Source: a virus
Reading direction: 5' to 3' (one strand)
Virus record (IMG/VR): IMGVR_UViG_3300004805_000028
Location: 1 to 27,325 of that record
DNA length: 27,325 bases
Part shown: positions 2,693 to 24,994 of the stretch, piece after piece
Layout of the letters: the number at the start of each line of letters is the position of its first letter
How positions within the stretch are numbered: the first letter of the stretch is position 1
Made by a program: the position numbers and the translations under genes
Notes under the pieces: model-generated
What the model saw: only the letters and a program-made list of their open reading frames with translations
Databases searched by the model: none
What the model was told of the DNA's origin: nothing

Positions 2693-4873
2693 TTGCCAAC
2701 TTCGATCGCCTTCGACCTCGAAACGTTCCTGATTACACCCGGGAACCTCACGCCCCCGCCCGTGTGCGGCTCGTTCGCTTCCGACGCCGAAGCCTGGCTC
2801 GAGACCGCCGCCGACACGTTCGAAACCCTCGGCGGGCTCTTGCGCCCTGGCGTGACGATCGAAGGCGCGAACGTGGCGTTCGACTTCGCGATCGCGGGCG
2901 CTCACCGAAACGACATGCTCGCCGAGATCTTCGAGCACTACGAGCGCGGCGGGGTCTACGACGTCCAACTAGCGCAAGCGCTCGACGCAATCTCTCGAGG
3001 CATGCTCGGAAAGGACCCGTCGACGGGCGGCCCGCTTCGCGCGATGAAGCATGATGGATCTTGGGGCAAGGTGACGAAGCGTTACTCTCTCGACACTTGC
3101 GTTCGCCTTGTGCTCGGGCGGAACAACGCGAAAGAAAACGATCAGTATCGGTTGCGGTACGGTGAGCTTGCTCACCTCCCGATCGAAGCCTGGCCAGAAG
3201 TCGCCCGCGTTTACCCGGTCGACGACGCTCGAAACACTCATGAAGTCGCGAGCGTGCAACGGGCTCGAGCGGCGAACGGCGAGTTCGCAAACATCGGGCC
3301 GATCGTGCGCTACATTCCGCGACTCGGAACCGCCGAGCCCCTCGGGTGGACTCACCTCACGCACCAAACCCGCGCCGCATTCGCGATGCAACTCGCGTCG
3401 GTGTGGGGAATCCGCACGGACCCCGAACGCGTCGAGAAGCTCGCCGCCGAAATGGACCTCGAGCACGCGCGCACCGACGCGTTGCTTCGCGAGTCAGGGC
3501 TTCTCAAACCCGACGGGAAAGAGGATCAGGGTGCGGTGAAGCGCCGCGTCGCCATCGCCTACGGCTCGAACCCCGCGCTCGCGTGCCCCGTGTGCAAGGG
3601 AACGACGAAGATCAGGAGCCTGAAGAGCGGCAACCCGATCAACTGTAAGACGTGCTCGGCGACCGGGCTCGATCTCGGACCCCAGGTCCCGCGCACGCCC
3701 GCCGATGGCGTGAAAGCCGATCGCGACACGCTCGAGGAATCAGACGATCCGGTTCTCGAGGCTCTCGCGGAAGCCGACGCGAAGATCCGCGACACTTACG
3801 TTCCGTTTCTGCGAACCGCCTCGAAGGTGCCCGCGAACATTTCGCCGAACGTGATCCTCGATACGCTTCGCGCTTCATGGGGCATTCTTCAGACCATGCC
3901 GAAGCGCGGCGGTGTGCGCGAGTGCGTGATCCCGCCCGAGGGTTTCGATATTGTTTCGGTCGACTACAACGCCCTAGAGTTCGCAACGCTCGGTCAGGTC
4001 GCCTTGTGGGTCGTCGGTTACTCGAAGATCGCAGAGTCGATCAACGCTGGCAAAGACGCTCACTCGATCCTCGGCGCTCGAATGACGTCGCTCACCTACG
4101 AAGATTTTCGAGCGCGTCTTAAGGCGACCGAAACGAAAGCGCTCTTCAAGCGGTTGCGCGACGGAACGAAGGCGGGAAACTTCGGCTTCGGCGGGCTCAT
4201 GGGTCCCGCGAAATTCGCGCTCACGCAACGCAAGGCGAAGATCGGCGGGCACGGTTCTATGTGCCGACTCATGGCGCGAGAGGTCCACCCGTGCGGCTCG
4301 GTGAAGATCACCGAGTATCGCCGCCGCCCGTGCCCGCCCGTGTGCGATCAGTGCGTCGAAGTGTCGGCCGAACTGAAAGGCGGGTGGCTCGAAACCTGGC
4401 CAGAAATGCCCGACTATTTCGATTGGGTCGCGTCGCTCCCGGGCGTGCAAGACGGTGAGGGCGTGATCGTCTCGCCTGGAACGGGATTCGTTCGCGGCGG
4501 GTTGAACGCGTCGGCCGCCGCGAATCATTCGTTTCAGCACCTCGCCGCCATGGGCGCGAAACACGCCCTTTGGAACGTCTCTCGAGAGTGCTACACCGAT
4601 CGGCGCTCGGCGCTCTACGGGTCGCGCCCGTTCATTTTCGCACACGACGAGATCCTAGCGCTCGTTCCTACGAGCCAGGCTCACGACGCGGCTTATCGTT
4701 TGGCGGCGGTCATGAAAGATCCCGAACTCGGAATGCCGAAGTTCGTTCCCGACGTCGCGATCAATTGCGAGCCCGCCCGCATGCGGCGTTGGTACAAGGC
4801 GGCCGACGCGGTATTTGACGCGAACGGCAAGCTCGATTATTGGGAACCCGAACCCGAACAAAAGGCGGCTTGA
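2693..4873 (+). CDS. family A DNA polymerase with 3'-5' exonuclease
   Basis: This 726-residue enzyme replicates phage DNA. Exonuclease residues are visible in order: D8 and E10 (AFDLET, Exo I), N60...D64 (NVAFDF, Exo II), Y174...D178 (YPVDD, Exo III). Polymerase motif A is DYNALEF with D424. Motif B is RDGTKAGNFGFGG (R489, K493, F497), a variant lacking the usual tyrosine. Motif C is AHDE with D652-E653. Two cysteine clusters are inserted: C298, C301, C318 and C321, resembling a DnaJ-type CxxCxG zinc ribbon between exonuclease and palm, and C524, C534, C547, C551 and C554 just after motif B. TTG is chosen as start because of a strong AGGAG 8 bases upstream and because Exo I begins at residue 5. 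MazG-like follows after 2 bases. Confidence 0.95.
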   Translation: MPTSIAFDLETFLITPGNLTPPPVCGSFASDAEAWLETAADTFETLGGLLRPGVTIEGANVAFDFAIAGAHRNDMLAEIFEHYERGGVYDVQLAQALDAISRGMLGKDPSTGGPLRAMKHDGSWGKVTKRYSLDTCVRLVLGRNNAKENDQYRLRYGELAHLPIEAWPEVARVYPVDDARNTHEVASVQRARAANGEFANIGPIVRYIPRLGTAEPLGWTHLTHQTRAAFAMQLASVWGIRTDPERVEKLAAEMDLEHARTDALLRESGLLKPDGKEDQGAVKRRVAIAYGSNPALACPVCKGTTKIRSLKSGNPINCKTCSATGLDLGPQVPRTPADGVKADRDTLEESDDPVLEALAEADAKIRDTYVPFLRTASKVPANISPNVILDTLRASWGILQTMPKRGGVRECVIPPEGFDIVSVDYNALEFATLGQVALWVVGYSKIAESINAGKDAHSILGARMTSLTYEDFRARLKATETKALFKRLRDGTKAGNFGFGGLMGPAKFALTQRKAKIGGHGSMCRLMAREVHPCGSVKITEYRRRPCPPVCDQCVEVSAELKGGWLETWPEMPDYFDWVASLPGVQDGEGVIVSPGTGFVRGGLNASAAANHSFQHLAAMGAKHALWNVSRECYTDRRSALYGSRPFIFAHDEILALVPTSQAHDAAYRLAAVMKDPELGMPKFVPDVAINCEPARMRRWYKAADAVFDANGKLDYWEPEPEQKAA

Positions 4874-4875
4874 AC

Positions 4876-5424
4876 ATGGATTTCGATACGTACCAGACCG
4901 AAGCGATTCGAACGGCGAGCAACAAGGGCGACAAGACTCTGATCTTTGCGCTCGGCTTGTGTGGTGAGGCGGGCGAGGTCGCCGACCTGATCAAGAAATG
5001 GGCGGGGCACGGGCACGAACTCGACAAGTCGAAGGTCACGAAGGAACTCGGCGACGTGCTTTGGTACGTCGCGACGCTCGCCGATCAACTCGGGATCAAT
5101 CTCGACGTGATCGCTTCGACGAACGTTGCGAAACTTCGCGCCCGCTACCCGAGCGGCTTCTCGGTCGAAGCCTCGAAGGCGAAAGCCGACGAGAAGAGTG
5201 TCGAGGTGCTGATTCCCGCGCCCATGATGATCACGCCCGTTCCGCTCCCGACCGCGCCGAACCTGACGTTCGGCATTCCGCGCGGGCCTGACCTCGAAGG
5301 TCTCGCTCGGCGTGAAGCGGGCGACATGCACGCGGGCTCCTACGTGCTCGAGACCTGGCCGAAGCCTCACGAGGGTTCGCCCCTCGCGATCTCCTACGAC
5401 GCCAACGGCTCGCCGATCGAATGA
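4876..5424 (+). CDS. MazG-like NTP pyrophosphohydrolase
   Basis: This 182-residue protein begins with an all-alpha MazG-type domain (about residues 1-105). The metal-binding helices are clear: E31 and E34 in GEAGEVADLIKK and E57 and D60 in ELGDVLWYVA. The family hydrolyses nucleoside triphosphates to monophosphates plus pyrophosphate. Phage members may adjust dNTP pools or lower host ppGpp. The last 75 residues are a proline-rich extension (LIPAPMMITPVPLPTAP) not needed for catalysis, with no family I recognise. The start at 4876 is 2 bases after the polymerase stop, with AAAGG about 10 bases upstream. The end overlaps the methyltransferase start by ATGA. Confidence 0.88.
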   Translation: MDFDTYQTEAIRTASNKGDKTLIFALGLCGEAGEVADLIKKWAGHGHELDKSKVTKELGDVLWYVATLADQLGINLDVIASTNVAKLRARYPSGFSVEASKAKADEKSVEVLIPAPMMITPVPLPTAPNLTFGIPRGPDLEGLARREAGDMHAGSYVLETWPKPHEGSPLAISYDANGSPIE

Positions 5425-5945
5425 GCAAGCTCGACGTTCACTTCAGTTCGAAGTCGATCGAATGGGGCACGCCTCAAAACGTGCTCGAGATCGTGCGTCA
5501 GTCTTACCGCCTCGTTCTCGACGTGTGCGCGACCCCGGGCCGCCAGCAAGCCGCGAACTACTTCGCACCGCCAGGCGCGGATCTCTCGAACACCTTCGGC
5601 GATCGGATCGTCGCGGTCGACGGGCTCATTCAGGATTGGGCGGGTTGGTGCGCTCACCTCGGCGGGTGCGCGTGGATGAACCCGCCCTTCGGTCGCGAGA
5701 TCGGCCGCTGGATCGCAAAGGCGCACGCGGAAGCGGCGCGGGGCGCGTGTGTCGTGTGCCTCGTTCCCGCGCGAACTGATACTTCATGGTGGCACGATCA
5801 CATTGAACCCGTGCGGCTCGGCGAGTTCCCGGGCGAGGTGCTCTTTTGGCGCGGGCGCATGAAGTTCACCGACGCGGCGGGCAAAGTCGGTGACGCCGCG
5901 CCGTTCCCGTGCGCCCTCGTTGTGTTCGGCTCGTTTAACAAGTAA
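5421..5945 (+). CDS. phage DNA N6-adenine methyltransferase (Dam type)
   Basis: At 174 residues this matches the length of the phage Dam-like methyltransferase family. It has the N-terminal WGTP signature (residues 15-18), DVCAT (34-38) and the catalytic NPPF motif (87-90, WMNPPFG), followed by TDTSWWHD near 118-125. It transfers a methyl group from S-adenosylmethionine to adenine N6, commonly in GATC in this family, although the site cannot be read from the sequence. Such enzymes protect phage DNA from host restriction or mark it for other uses. No cognate restriction gene is present. It is coupled to the MazG-like gene by ATGA and precedes the HD gene by 13 bases. Confidence 0.9.
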   Translation: MSKLDVHFSSKSIEWGTPQNVLEIVRQSYRLVLDVCATPGRQQAANYFAPPGADLSNTFGDRIVAVDGLIQDWAGWCAHLGGCAWMNPPFGREIGRWIAKAHAEAARGACVVCLVPARTDTSWWHDHIEPVRLGEFPGEVLFWRGRMKFTDAAGKVGDAAPFPCALVVFGSFNK

Positions 5946-7634: not shown

Positions 7635-8396
7635 ATGCGCGCGATTCTTCTGTGTGGTCAGGCGGGATCGGGGAAAGACACGATCGCGTCAATGATCGAA
7701 AACGCCCTTCCCGGGCGCGTTCGTCGACTCGCTCTCGCCGACCCGCTGAAAGAGTTCGCGAAAGCGGTGTTCCTCTTCTCGGATCTTCAGTTGTGGGGTC
7801 CGTCGGAAGCGCGGAACGAGATCGACGTTCGCGGCGCGGATCTCCGCTATTGGGATTCGTGCCGCGAACGCCTTTGGAATGTCGGCCGCGAATTCGTTCG
7901 CGAATGGGTCGAAGCGTGCGGCACCTCACCGCGCGGCACGGGTCACGCGGTGCTCGAATGGTTCGAGGCACTCACACCCTACCCGTTCGAGCCAGGGCGC
8001 GGGGTCGACGCGTCGGCGCGGGTGAAGCTCTTCTCGCCGCGCCATGTTCTTCAGACCCTCGGGACCGACTACGGCCGCCGCGTGTTCGGACCCGACGTGT
8101 GGGCTCGGATCGCTTTGCGCCGCGCCGCTCGAGAAGAGATCGCGGTGATCACCGACGGGCGCTTTCCGAACGAGGTCGACGCCTTCACGACGGCGGGCGC
8201 GAAGATCGTTCGTGTGGTCGACCACACTGCGCCCGAAGCGACCGGGGCGATTCACGGGCACCCGAGCGAGCGCGGGTTGCTCGGGATCAACCCTGGCAAG
8301 TTCCACGCGTGGATCGTCAACGACAAGACGCAAGGCTATGAGCCGCTTCGCGTTCGTGTTCTCGAAGTGCTCGAAGGGTTCGGGTGGATCGAATGA
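7635..8396 (+). CDS. deoxynucleoside monophosphate kinase
   Basis: The product has 253 residues, close to T4 gp1-type dNMP kinases. It starts with the P-loop GQAGSGKDT (residues 8-16). Further on are LADPLKEFAK (a lid and substrate region), QTLGTDYGRRVFGPDVW and ITDGRFPNEVDAF, all typical of this family, where the last holds an aspartate and arginine used in nucleotide binding. The enzyme phosphorylates dNMPs to dNDPs with ATP, feeding phage DNA synthesis and often accepting modified nucleotides. It lies 4 bases after the preceding gene, and its stop codon overlaps the next start by ATGA. Confidence 0.9.
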   Translation: MRAILLCGQAGSGKDTIASMIENALPGRVRRLALADPLKEFAKAVFLFSDLQLWGPSEARNEIDVRGADLRYWDSCRERLWNVGREFVREWVEACGTSPRGTGHAVLEWFEALTPYPFEPGRGVDASARVKLFSPRHVLQTLGTDYGRRVFGPDVWARIALRRAAREEIAVITDGRFPNEVDAFTTAGAKIVRVVDHTAPEATGAIHGHPSERGLLGINPGKFHAWIVNDKTQGYEPLRVRVLEVLEGFGWIE

Positions 8397-20818: not shown

Positions 20819-22540
20819 TCAGTTCCCGCCGTTCGCCGCGTGAGCGTCTTGAAGGTGCCCGCCGAGTTCTTCACGCACCGCCAGGCGCGCCGCTTCGGCA
20901 ACGCCCGCCGCGTCAGTACCAGGCGGGACCGAGATCGAGATCGACGATTGAACGACCGTCGAACGCTTCGACGAGTCGACGGACGAAGACACGGCCGCCG
21001 ACGCCGAAGGCGAGACCGCGCCCGGGGCGATCATCGAAGAAATGAAGTCGCCGCCTTTCTGATCCCATTCCGAGACCTTGTTCGCGGCCGACACGGCGGG
21101 AGCAATCCCGGGGAATTTCGAAACGAGCATGTCGCTAACCGACTGGCCGTTCAGACCGAACGGGTCGGCGAGCCCGGGAAACTTCTCGGCGATCGCGTCG
21201 CCGATCGGCTTGCCGCCGAGCGAGAGCGGGTCGGCGAGCCCGGGCGCGACTTGTCCGAGGTTCGTGTTCACCTCGAAGTTGAAGCCCTTCGTGTCGACGC
21301 CCAACTTCTCGAGGATCCATTTCAGGCTACTGACCAACGCCTTGACCGGGCTCATGACCCAATCGAAGATCGCCTGACCGAGTTTCTTCCATTTCTCGGG
21401 ATCGGTGAGGTCGAAGAGCAACGCGCCCGCCGACTTCAGGAGCTTCACGAATTCGTTGTCTTCGGGGTCGATCGAATTGAACCACCCGATGATCCGACCG
21501 AGCATCGAATCGCCGCCTTCGATGAACGTGTAAATGTCGTCGACGATCAGGGCGATCAGGGCACCGAGCGCGATGAACGGAAGCGCCGCACCGATCCAGG
21601 CGGCGGCCGCCTCGAGCGCCGCGACGACGAACGCCGATCCCGCCGTTGCAGCGGCGGCCGCGAGACCGAACGTGATCGCGGTGAGCGCGAACAACGCCGT
21701 CTCGACGATCGTCTCGTTCGAGAGCAAGAGATCGAGCCCGTCGACGAGAACGCCGAGCGTGTCGACGAGTCGGCCGAAGCCTCGAGCGAGCGCGTCGACG
21801 GCGCGCTGAACGCCCTTCCCGGTCATGAGCTTTTGCAGTTTGCTGAAAAGCTCCGTGACTTTCGAAATGTTATTCTTAGCGAACTGATTCTGAAGACCGC
21901 CGACGGTCGACTCGAGCCGCTTCAACTGATCGTCGTAGGCTTCGGCCGCTGCGATCGTCGACGTGTCGAGAACGACGCCGAGCCGTTGGGCTTCCTCGCG
22001 AAGCGCGCCGATTCCCGCCGCGCCCTTGTTCAGCAACGGAACGAGATCGATTCCCGCGCGGCCGAAGAGCTTCAACGCGAGTGCGGTCTTCTCGACGCCT
22101 GGCGGCATGCTCGCGAACTTGTCGGCCGTGTTCTCGAGAATGTCCTGAATCGAGAGCATGCCTTTCGCGTCGGAAATCTTGATTCCCGCGAACGCTTCCT
22201 TTGCGTCTTTCGATCCGCTGGCGGCTTCGGCCGCCGCTTTCGAAAGGAACTTCAGTGAACTCGTGAGCGTCTCGGCGCTCGTGTCCGAGAGTAGGGCCGC
22301 GTAGCCGAGTTCCTGAAGAACATCGACCGCGATCCCGAGCTTCTCGGCGGTCGCGCTCACCTCGTCGCCCATTTCGGCGACATGGTGAACCGTCTTGAAC
22401 GCTTCGGTCACGCCGTCGGCGATCGCGCTGAAGACCTTTTCGAACGCGCCCGAGAGGTGATCGAGCAAGGCGAACGCGTCGGCGAATTCGCCTTGCTCGA
22501 TCTTTGCGCCGAGGGTCGCGACAAGTTCCTGAACGACCAT
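20819..22540 (-). CDS. tail tape measure protein
   Basis: The ATG at 22540 is preferred over a TTG two codons before it; a GAGG site lies about 8 bases upstream. The product is 573 residues. It has long helical stretches (VTEAFKTVHHVAEMGDEVSA, LKFLSKAAAEAASGSKDAKE, NQFAKNNISKVTELFSKLQK), a hydrophobic region with likely membrane segments at about 285-345 (ALTAITFGLAAAAATAGSAF, ALPFIALGALIALIV) and a C-terminal SSISISVPPGTDAAGVAEAA like other tape measure proteins. It sets tail length and is thought to be released into the host. At about 0.15 nm per residue this predicts a tail near 85 nm. It lies right after the chaperone genes. Confidence 0.88.
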   Translation of the reverse strand: MVVQELVATLGAKIEQGEFADAFALLDHLSGAFEKVFSAIADGVTEAFKTVHHVAEMGDEVSATAEKLGIAVDVLQELGYAALLSDTSAETLTSSLKFLSKAAAEAASGSKDAKEAFAGIKISDAKGMLSIQDILENTADKFASMPPGVEKTALALKLFGRAGIDLVPLLNKGAAGIGALREEAQRLGVVLDTSTIAAAEAYDDQLKRLESTVGGLQNQFAKNNISKVTELFSKLQKLMTGKGVQRAVDALARGFGRLVDTLGVLVDGLDLLLSNETIVETALFALTAITFGLAAAAATAGSAFVVAALEAAAAWIGAALPFIALGALIALIVDDIYTFIEGGDSMLGRIIGWFNSIDPEDNEFVKLLKSAGALLFDLTDPEKWKKLGQAIFDWVMSPVKALVSSLKWILEKLGVDTKGFNFEVNTNLGQVAPGLADPLSLGGKPIGDAIAEKFPGLADPFGLNGQSVSDMLVSKFPGIAPAVSAANKVSEWDQKGGDFISSMIAPGAVSPSASAAVSSSVDSSKRSTVVQSSISISVPPGTDAAGVAEAARLAVREELGGHLQDAHAANGGN

Positions 22541-22550
22541 GGTCAAACCC

Positions 22551-22805
22551 TCACTTCTTTTTGCGCTCTTGCTCCCGCCGTTGCGCTTCGTGCCAGGCGT
22601 CGAGAGCTTCGTTCTCTTCGATCACGTCGTCGAAACAATACCACGATTCAAGGTCTCGCCGAGTCGCGACGCCTTCGAGGATCAGTCGTTGGATCGGCCA
22701 ACAAAGAGCCGAGTTGACTTGATCCAGCGTTACGCCGCCGTCTTCGAGTTGAGCGCCCCCGACACGGCGGTTCGAAGGCGTTCGAAGAAAGACCCGAAGT
22801 TGCAC
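22551..22805 (-). CDS. tail assembly chaperone, -1 frame extension
   Basis: This frame lies -1 to the upstream chaperone gene and overlaps its 3' end by 76 bases. Its own putative start (GTG 22805) has no clear ribosome site. The sequence (LCWPIQRLILEGVATRRDLE, WYCFDDVIEENEALDAWHEA, ending KKK) looks like the T segment of lambda G-GT type chaperones. It would be made as a C-terminal extension of the upstream protein by ribosomal frameshifting, about 200 residues in total. It lies immediately upstream of the tape measure gene, the invariant place for such extensions. The Shine-Dalgarno of the tape measure overlaps its end. Confidence 0.72.
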   Translation of the reverse strand: MQLRVFLRTPSNRRVGGAQLEDGGVTLDQVNSALCWPIQRLILEGVATRRDLESWYCFDDVIEENEALDAWHEAQRREQERKKK

Positions 22806-23152
22806 TCGAGCGCGAAGAGAACGAGCCGCCCGAGTTCGAACGGGTGCCCCGTGAAGATCTCGCCGAGGTTCCGCGCGGCGTTCGCGTCGACCTCGTTCGC
22901 ATCGGGGAACCGCACCGACACGCGAGAGAGCACCTCGTTCTGAATGCGCTCGTATTCCTCGGGATCGACCTTCTCGAGAAGCCCCGCGATCATCGCCGCG
23001 CCGTTGCCCGCCTGGCGATTCGAGAGGGCAGGGCCGACCTTGTTCGCGAGACGAACGAAGAGCTTCATGGCGCGAACGCCGTCGAGTTGTGGAACCGTGA
23101 AGACACCCGAGCCCTTCGAGGTGTCGAGCGTGATTTCTTTCGAAACGATCAT
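22730..23152 (-). CDS. tail assembly chaperone (G-like)
   Basis: A 140-residue protein following the tail tube gene. It begins with DTSKGSGVFTVPQLDGVRAM and continues with FVRLANKVGPALSN and VDPEEYERIQNEVLSRVSV, then HPFELGRLVLFALECNFG. These are features of the tail assembly chaperones that hold the tape measure before tube assembly. AGGAG lies 11-15 bases upstream of ATG 23152. A run of five G at 22756-22760 (minus strand) lies eight codons before the stop and could allow slippage into the -1 frame. Confidence 0.78.
   Translation of the reverse strand: MIVSKEITLDTSKGSGVFTVPQLDGVRAMKLFVRLANKVGPALSNRQAGNGAAMIAGLLEKVDPEEYERIQNEVLSRVSVRFPDANEVDANAARNLGEIFTGHPFELGRLVLFALECNFGSFFERLRTAVSGALNSKTAA
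22756..22760 (-). other. candidate -1 frameshift site
   Basis: On the minus strand the zero-frame codons read TCG GGG GCG. A P-site tRNA on GGG can re-pair after slipping back one base because all bases are G. This would place the ribosome in the frame of the downstream extension. A second candidate is TCT TTC TTC near 22784-22792. Neither is a perfect X-XXY-YYZ heptamer. Confidence 0.45.
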
Positions 23153-23234: not shown

Positions 23235-23657
23235 TCAGTTGCCGCCGTTGAAAATGTCGAGACGCCCGGTCTCGAACGTCCATTCACGGCCGCCGATCTC
23301 TTTGGCGAACTCGGAATCAGCGGGCTTGCGAATCCACGCTTCGACCGCCGACACGAGCGTTCGACCGCTCGCGTCTTTGACGAAGAGCGCACCCGTGCCG
23401 ACGTTGGTCAGTTCGTCTTGCGCCATGAGGTTCGCGAGGTCGTCGTTCGACGGGCTCGTTTGCATGAGCGTCACGGTCACCGTTCCCGACTGATCGGAAT
23501 TGGCGGCGCGGGCCGCCTCGCCATCGGAACCGATCGCGAGCGTGAACGAGTCGTTGTTTCGGCTCGCCGTGACGAAAGATCCGTCCATCGTGCCAGTGAG
23601 GATCTTTCCCGCGAACGAAACGAGAACCTTCTTCGAGTTGTACGTTTTGGTTGCCAT
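23235..23657 (-). CDS. tail tube protein (DUF3277 type)
   Basis: A 140-residue protein with a near-complete DUF3277 signature: TYNSKKVLVSFAGKILTGTM, DGSFVTASRNNDSFTLAIGS, SGTVTVTLMQTSPSNDDLAN, AVEAWIRKPADSEFAKEIGG and a final FNGGN. This is the tail tube (inner tube) of contractile tails with DUF3383 sheaths, made in many copies. GAAAGGAAA precedes ATG 23657. It follows the sheath gene and is followed by the terminator at 23180-23209. Confidence 0.93.
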   Translation of the reverse strand: MATKTYNSKKVLVSFAGKILTGTMDGSFVTASRNNDSFTLAIGSDGEAARAANSDQSGTVTVTLMQTSPSNDDLANLMAQDELTNVGTGALFVKDASGRTLVSAVEAWIRKPADSEFAKEIGGREWTFETGRLDIFNGGN

Positions 23658-23674: not shown

Positions 23675-24994
23675 TTACACCGTGATCGTGCCGCTGATCG
23701 TGGTCGCGTGAATCGCGCCCGCGATCCGGGCCGTGAACGAGATCGGCTTGAGCACGCGAGCCGTCTTGTCGATCGTCGCGACCGCCGAAGCCAGGGGCAC
23801 CGAGACGATCGGCGCGGGGTTGTCGGCCAGGAAGCCCGACTGAATCCCTTCGGTCAGTTGCGCGCGAAGTTCCGCCTCGATCGCGGCAATGCCTCGATCG
23901 GTGAACGGCACCTTTGCGTTGTTCACGAGCACCGAATACACGCGCGCTTGAAGCCGCGACTCGAACCAATCGCGATCGCGGATCACGTCGGCGAACTCGC
24001 CCGCCGCCGTCTTGCCCTCGGCGGTAATCGCGATCCCGCCGTAGTCGGTGAAGAACATGGCGTTCTTCGCGCGGGCGTTGGTGAGTTGCGTCGCGGTGAG
24101 CGCGTCGGACGTGACGCCCGCGAGCTTGCGGAACTTGAAGGTCACCGAGCCAGGGTCGAACGGGAACGTCGCGCCGAGAAGAGCCGCGCCCGCGTGCGTG
24201 AACGAGCCACGGTTCGAGAACATGACGATCGAGCGGAAGTCGTTCGCCGCCTTCACCGTGCCCGCAACGTCCGTCGTAGGAGCGGCGAGAATGTCGCCGT
24301 CTTGCGAGGTGAACGCCGCGAACTTCTTGTTCGATTCCGCCCATGCGGCGGCCGCGATGATCTCGGCTTTGCCGCCCGTCGAGAGCGTGAGCCCGTACCA
24401 ATCCGACGACTCGAGAGCGATCGCCGCGAGGTCGGTCGCGATCCCGGGGTCGGCGTGGGTTTGTTGCGCGGTCATGACCGAGAGATCTTGAGCGGCGGCC
24501 GCGAAGTGAGAGCCCGCCGAAGCCGCCTTCAGGCGAACGAAAGTCGTCTGATCGGTCGCGGTGATCCCGACGGCCGCCGTATTGATCGCCGAGGTCAGAC
24601 CCGCCGTGATCTCGGCGACGGTCGCCGTCGAGTCGGACGTGAACGAAGCGGTCGCGGTCAAGCCAGCGGGACCGAGAAGATCGACCTTGTAGGTTCGAAG
24701 ATTGACCGCCGTCGGGAAGAGATCGATTTGCAGGTCGGGAGCCAGGGCGCGGCGGCCGATCGCGAGCCGTTGCACTTGCGGGGTTTGGGCGAACACAGCG
24801 GCGGCGGCGCGGTAAGCGCCATCGTTCACGGTGAACCCGTCGTCGATCATGCCTTGAAGGCTCGTGTAGAAGCGAACGCGCTCGGCGAAACGCGCATGGA
24901 AATCAGCGATCAGGGGCACGCCGAACCCCGGTTGCTTGACCGCCGTCGTGAGCGTGCTCACGTTGACAGTCACAATGTCAGAGAGAGAAGCCAT
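23675..24994 (-). CDS. tail sheath protein (DUF3383 type)
   Basis: A 439-residue protein, the usual size of DUF3383 sheaths. The start MASLSDIVTVNVST, the middle TSQDGDILAAPTTDVAGTVK and AMFFTDYGGIAITAEGKTA, and the end RDRDWFESRLQARVYSVLVN and ATISGTI-like beta strands match this family. The sheath wraps the tube and contracts to drive the spike into the cell. GAAAGGG precedes ATG 24994. Tube gene follows after 17 bases. The presence of this gene identifies the phage as a myovirus. Confidence 0.92.
   Translation of the reverse strand: MASLSDIVTVNVSTLTTAVKQPGFGVPLIADFHARFAERVRFYTSLQGMIDDGFTVNDGAYRAAAAVFAQTPQVQRLAIGRRALAPDLQIDLFPTAVNLRTYKVDLLGPAGLTATASFTSDSTATVAEITAGLTSAINTAAVGITATDQTTFVRLKAASAGSHFAAAAQDLSVMTAQQTHADPGIATDLAAIALESSDWYGLTLSTGGKAEIIAAAAWAESNKKFAAFTSQDGDILAAPTTDVAGTVKAANDFRSIVMFSNRGSFTHAGAALLGATFPFDPGSVTFKFRKLAGVTSDALTATQLTNARAKNAMFFTDYGGIAITAEGKTAAGEFADVIRDRDWFESRLQARVYSVLVNNAKVPFTDRGIAAIEAELRAQLTEGIQSGFLADNPAPIVSVPLASAVATIDKTARVLKPISFTARIAGAIHATTISGTITV

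Follow-up and report, generated by a model that had tools for sequence, protein, structure and literature searches.

A tail assembly chaperone gene with a very probable −1 ribosomal frameshift at a reduced but positionally conserved slip motif

The phage represented by the window (the whole stretch of viral DNA analysed here, 27,325 nt) very probably makes two versions of its tail assembly chaperone by −1 ribosomal slippage, as judged by sequence comparison. We regard it as highly likely that the zero frame, ORF1 (22730–23152, minus strand), and the overlapping −1 frame form one chaperone gene, in which a slip at TCT TTC TTC would lead to a fusion of about 200 amino acids (aa). This −1 frameshift reading, which the original prediction had already put forward with a product of about that size, is strongly supported by comparison with relatives, i.e., by gene order, conserved coding in the −1 frame and a conserved slip position. 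Most ribosomes would terminate at the TAA of ORF1 (22732–22730) to give a short form of 140 aa, while a few would slip back by one base at TCT TTC TTC (22792–22784), with tRNA-Phe re-pairing from UUC to UUU, and would read 77–78 further codons to complete the fusion. The junction peptide would be ...NFGSFFR followed by TPSNR (SFF/RTPSNR) if both Phe codons are read in the zero frame, or ...NFGSFLR (SF/LRTPSNR) if the first UUC slips in the A site. If lambda gpG/gpGT is a guide, the short part may cover the tape measure protein, and the rare long form may recruit tail tube subunits through its helical C-terminal domain; that ribosomes slip in vivo, how often they do so and what the two products do are inferred. 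Counted against this reading are that only one good re-pairing is available at the motif, that the SD-like element is degraded and that the downstream hairpin is matched by shuffled sequences.

The two overlapping minus-strand frames lie, as had been claimed, between the tail tube and tape measure genes. The tail sheath (DUF3383; PF11863, phrog_205) is encoded at 23675–24994, the tail tube protein (PF11681 KPP10_Orf10, phrog_280) at 23235–23657 and the tape measure protein (phrog_8462 and other tape measure families) at 20819–22540, all on the minus strand, the last with its ATG at 22540 and GAGGG ahead of this start. ORF1 thus occupies the place, between a KPP10_Orf10-type tube and the tape measure, that gene order assigns to frameshifted chaperones. 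It scores 51.4 bits against PF21822 (Phage_TAC_15), for which the curated cut-off is 22, placing it in that family, and a PHROG search matches it to phrog_1613, tail assembly chaperone, with an E value of 2.4e-16. The best PDB rows for an AlphaFold2 model of ORF1 (pLDDT 85.8) are 5ir0 (Z 8.3), 3klu, YqbN (Z 5.5), and 2ob9, the HK97 chaperone (Z 4.1); the predicted structure modestly resembles the solved chaperones 3klu and 2ob9. Elsewhere in the window, the plus strand, opposed to the tail genes, carries a divergent family A DNA polymerase (2693–4873), a DNA methyltransferase (5421–5945) and a deoxynucleoside monophosphate kinase (7635–8396).

Read directly from the sequence, the second frame is −1 to ORF1, ends at a TGA (22553–22551) and is open upstream of the overlap, in fact over the entire ORF1, in agreement with the original prediction. 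This openness says little by itself, since long chance ORFs are frequent at the window's GC content of 62% (176 ORFs of at least 60 aa are present), and a comparison with relatives was therefore needed. The comparison set comprised 42 distinct loci with GC contents of 0.34–0.64, namely the window's phage (L001) and 41 relatives, and the C-terminal domain was found in the −1 frame in all of them. The closest relative outside the window's phage, L006, keeps the layout, with sheath, chaperone and tube 88%, 67% and 84% identical, respectively, and with 62% aa identity in the −1 frame. Over the 56 codons past the ORF1 stop, substitutions between the window and L006 number 14/4/18 at codon positions 1/2/3, a spread like that of a coding frame.

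The extension itself (22551–22790, minus strand) would consist of 79 codons counted from the slip point and the stop, and is supported by the conserved domain and the substitution pattern. Across 26 aligned sequences the domain is conserved in the −1 frame with the consensus EExxIWRLVxEGxATLxELETxWSLDDVxRANAVLD. A model of the extension places helices at residues 27–38, 44–50 and 53–78 with a pLDDT of about 90, so that the C-terminal domain, after a disordered linker, is predicted with high confidence to be helical. A Foldseek search with the domain gave no PDB match, and no match below E 0.3 among viral models. The −1 domains match PHROG families of unknown function (phrog_4364 in 15 of 26, phrog_37484 and phrog_3976 in 10 of 26 each), and Pfam DUF6889, also of unknown function, perhaps matches them as well. 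Because of these matches, the three PHROG families, and perhaps DUF6889, probably represent the C-terminal parts of frameshifted chaperones, separated from their N-terminal halves.

Where does the ribosome change frame? The position that the relatives point to falls in a chaperone motif conserved over the 42 loci, typically LEVNxGSFF. At this position the window and L006 share TCT TTC TTC, both carrying TCTTTCTTC, and 38 other loci have T_TTT_TTN, with T_TTT_TTC in 27, T_TTT_TTA in five, and T_TTT_TTG and T_TTT_TTT in three each. The rarer heptamers are T_TTC_TTC itself (two loci, the window and L006), T_TTT_TCC (L075) and C_CCT_TTG (L066). In 41/42 loci the base ahead of the first Phe codon is T, although the residue encoded there varies among S, D, N, R, C, T, P and G, so that the constraint acts on the nucleotide. 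The slip motif is conserved at the nucleotide level among the relatives and is degenerate in the window and L006.

Since TCT TTC TTC is common to the window and L006 and sits exactly where the relatives have T_TTT_TTN, the slip most likely occurs at U_UUC (22790–22787), the tetramer within the T_TTC_TTC slip site (22784–22790, minus strand). The original prediction had named a TTT-CTT site as one to examine by alignment; the site is real, coincides with the conserved slip position and is the better candidate. TCT accounts for only 6.5% of the Ser codons in the window's genes. Within the region where a −1 slip could occur, just two Z_ZZN sites are common to the window and L006: U_UUC in the motif and, a long way upstream, C_CCG. 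Of these, only U_UUC is clearly shift-prone. Base composition alone does not account for the change from TTT to TTC in the window's clade, because loci of 58–64% GC (L016, L062, L070, L074 and L081) retain TTT.

The clade is represented here by the window's phage and L006 only. Scanning 84,980 species genomes twice yielded no relative, and a distant blastn search with the tail region matched no named phage. A search for counterexamples, using the DNA pattern Ser-TTC-TTC within the motif, returned, apart from the window and L006 loci themselves, only three unrelated matches due to chance, and a scan for further clade members returned one distant locus, with a GTTTTT-type site. In a separate group of DUF3383-type phages (L029 and L031–L038; L031 at about 4295), the chaperone-like −1 overlap coincides with GGGAAAC, a heptamer in frame, rather than with T-rich sites.

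The original prediction placed the slip instead at a G-run, TCG GGG GCG (22762–22754), about 10 codons downstream of the U_UUC site. The GGGGG run itself is present (22760–22756), with its GGG codon nine, rather than the predicted eight, codons before the TAA. A slip there, which would give the junction peptide TAVSGGAQLEDGG... (fusion peptide form TAVSGGAQLEDGGVTLDQVNSALCWPIQR), has in its favour that G_GGG allows cognate re-pairing of tRNA-Gly and lies inside the overlap. However, L006 reads GTG ACG AAG GCT at this position and yet keeps the whole arrangement, and none of the 42 loci has a homologous G-run site; the run is not conserved. Furthermore, G_GG.G is not frameshift-prone in E. coli, where its signal was ascribed to SD-like initiation (PMC4066793). 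We therefore consider slippage at the G-run improbable, and take U_UUC as the preferred site in what follows.

The second frame could alternatively be a gene by itself, with initiation for example at GTG 22805 or by re-initiation at CTG 22727 after the ORF1 stop, and some relatives are indeed annotated with two genes (wV8 gp71/gp72). The GTG at 22805 is in frame and is the sole ATG, GTG or TTG in the window's −1 frame. However, no Shine–Dalgarno match precedes it, which agrees with the earlier statement that the second frame lacks a clear ribosome site, and it is absent in L006, where no −1 start occurs ahead of a TTG inside the domain. In 17 of the 42 loci the −1 frame offers no ATG, GTG or TTG before the conserved domain. 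These findings on the starts make independent initiation unlikely, and a separate gene would give no reason for the conserved nucleotides of the slip site; we judge this explanation very improbable. Least probable of all is a frame change by RNA polymerase slippage, for which the T6–T7 runs of relatives are a possible substrate whereas the run is interrupted in the window and L006 (TTTCTTC), making it unlikely in this clade, or a sequencing error that split a single fused gene, which is excluded by the recurrence of the −1 layout at every one of the 42 loci, three contigs of the window's phage among them.

With ribosomal slippage at the Phe codons as the favoured reading, the mechanism at the window's site would differ from the classical one. 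On T_TTC_TTC the first UUC re-pairs as UUU, whereas the second tRNA-Phe would sit on CUU and mispair, so that a tandem slip of the X_XXY_YYZ type is unavailable. What the site does contain is a zero-frame tetramer of the Z_ZZN type, U_UUC. A survey in E. coli, which may not be the host of this phage, found that six tetramer motifs shift at 0.26–5.6% with the IS3 pseudoknot, in the order A_AA.G >> U_UU.C > U_UU.U > C_CC.U = C_CC.C > A_AA.A (PMC4066793). U_UU.C is thus the second-best −1 tetramer in that organism and is used in IS elements, and tetramer sites require a strong stimulator (PMC4066793).

A possible stimulator is a 25-nt hairpin, GCCTTCG...CGGGGGC (22755–22779, minus strand), which starts 4 nt after the heptamer and whose 3′ arm is formed by the G-run. 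Its predicted stability is −10.4 kcal/mol in the window and −11.0 kcal/mol in L006, where a hairpin at the identical offset (GCCTTCG...CGAAGGC) has seven perfect pairs, two of its U–A pairs being U–G in the window. However, 22/200 and 19/200 shuffles (about 6–11% for the window and L006) equalled the hairpin, and since about one shuffle in ten does so, it is a lead rather than a result and its role as stimulator is suggestive only. Nor is such a hairpin general, as the rule used found none downstream in 15 of the 42 loci. Upstream by about 10–15 nt, an SD-like GGAGGTGAAC reaches −13.6 kcal/mol in many relatives, compared with −6.3 in L006 and −3.7 in the window, where it is weak; other relatives lack it altogether. 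We propose, tentatively and as a possibility somewhat short of even, that an ancestral tandem T_TTT_TTC decayed to a single-tRNA U_UUC slip while the upstream SD-like stimulator was lost and the downstream hairpin possibly gained, changing the mechanism that sets the short:long ratio.

Separately, a perfect 10-bp inverted repeat, ACGCCTTCGA/TCGAAGGCGT, at 22781–22772 and 22678–22669 on the minus strand, encloses the overlap; it would compete with the short hairpin and is not conserved in L006. Sites consisting of no more than a U_UUU tetramer occur in L075 (about 2273, GAT TTT TCC), L094 (about 3120, GTT TTT CAA) and L086 (about 4317, GTT TTT TCT), and reduction to a tetramer may thus have occurred more than once among the relatives.

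The arrangement in the window has known counterparts. First, it resembles lambda gpG/gpGT, as originally predicted, in gene position, in pairing a short chaperone with a rare −1 extended form and in having a separate C-terminal domain as the extension. Lambda slips on G_GGA_AAG; the slip sequence is thus different, and the likeness described here is one of arrangement. Second, a conserved −1 frameshift at GTTTTT was proposed in 2025 for the chaperone of Vandenendeviridae and Andersonviridae (the Adele paper, PMC12846349). These phages share with the window a DUF3383-type tail, a chaperone before the tape measure, a −1 frame open into a C-terminal domain and a T-rich slip motif close to where the chaperone gene ends; their GTTTTT is invariant, whereas the window's clade has its own motif with good re-pairing at the first Phe codon only. 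Third, IS-element U_UU.C sites (PMC4066793) have the tetramer U_UUC in common with the window; they lie in transposase genes with known stimulators, whereas the window's stimulator is a candidate hairpin. Since the GTTTTT frameshift has been proposed and chaperone frameshifting of the lambda type is conserved widely (PMC5009743), the phage adds to a known kind of system. A frameshifted chaperone has already been proposed in related phages, and the unusual point is the clade's reduced slip motif, present in two phages.

The reading corrects the annotation of the window's phage and of many relatives, in which the downstream half has been overlooked or entered as a gene in its own right, with unknown function. 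In addition, it provides a natural series of slip sites at one homologous position (T_TTT_TTC, T_TTT_TCC, T_TTC_TTC and C_CCT_TTG), on which the influence of slip motif and stimulators on the chaperone ratio could be tested directly. The public annotation of Rhizobium phage RHEph04 (L081) has a gap from chaperone to tape measure at 1921–2138, where the −1 domain lies.
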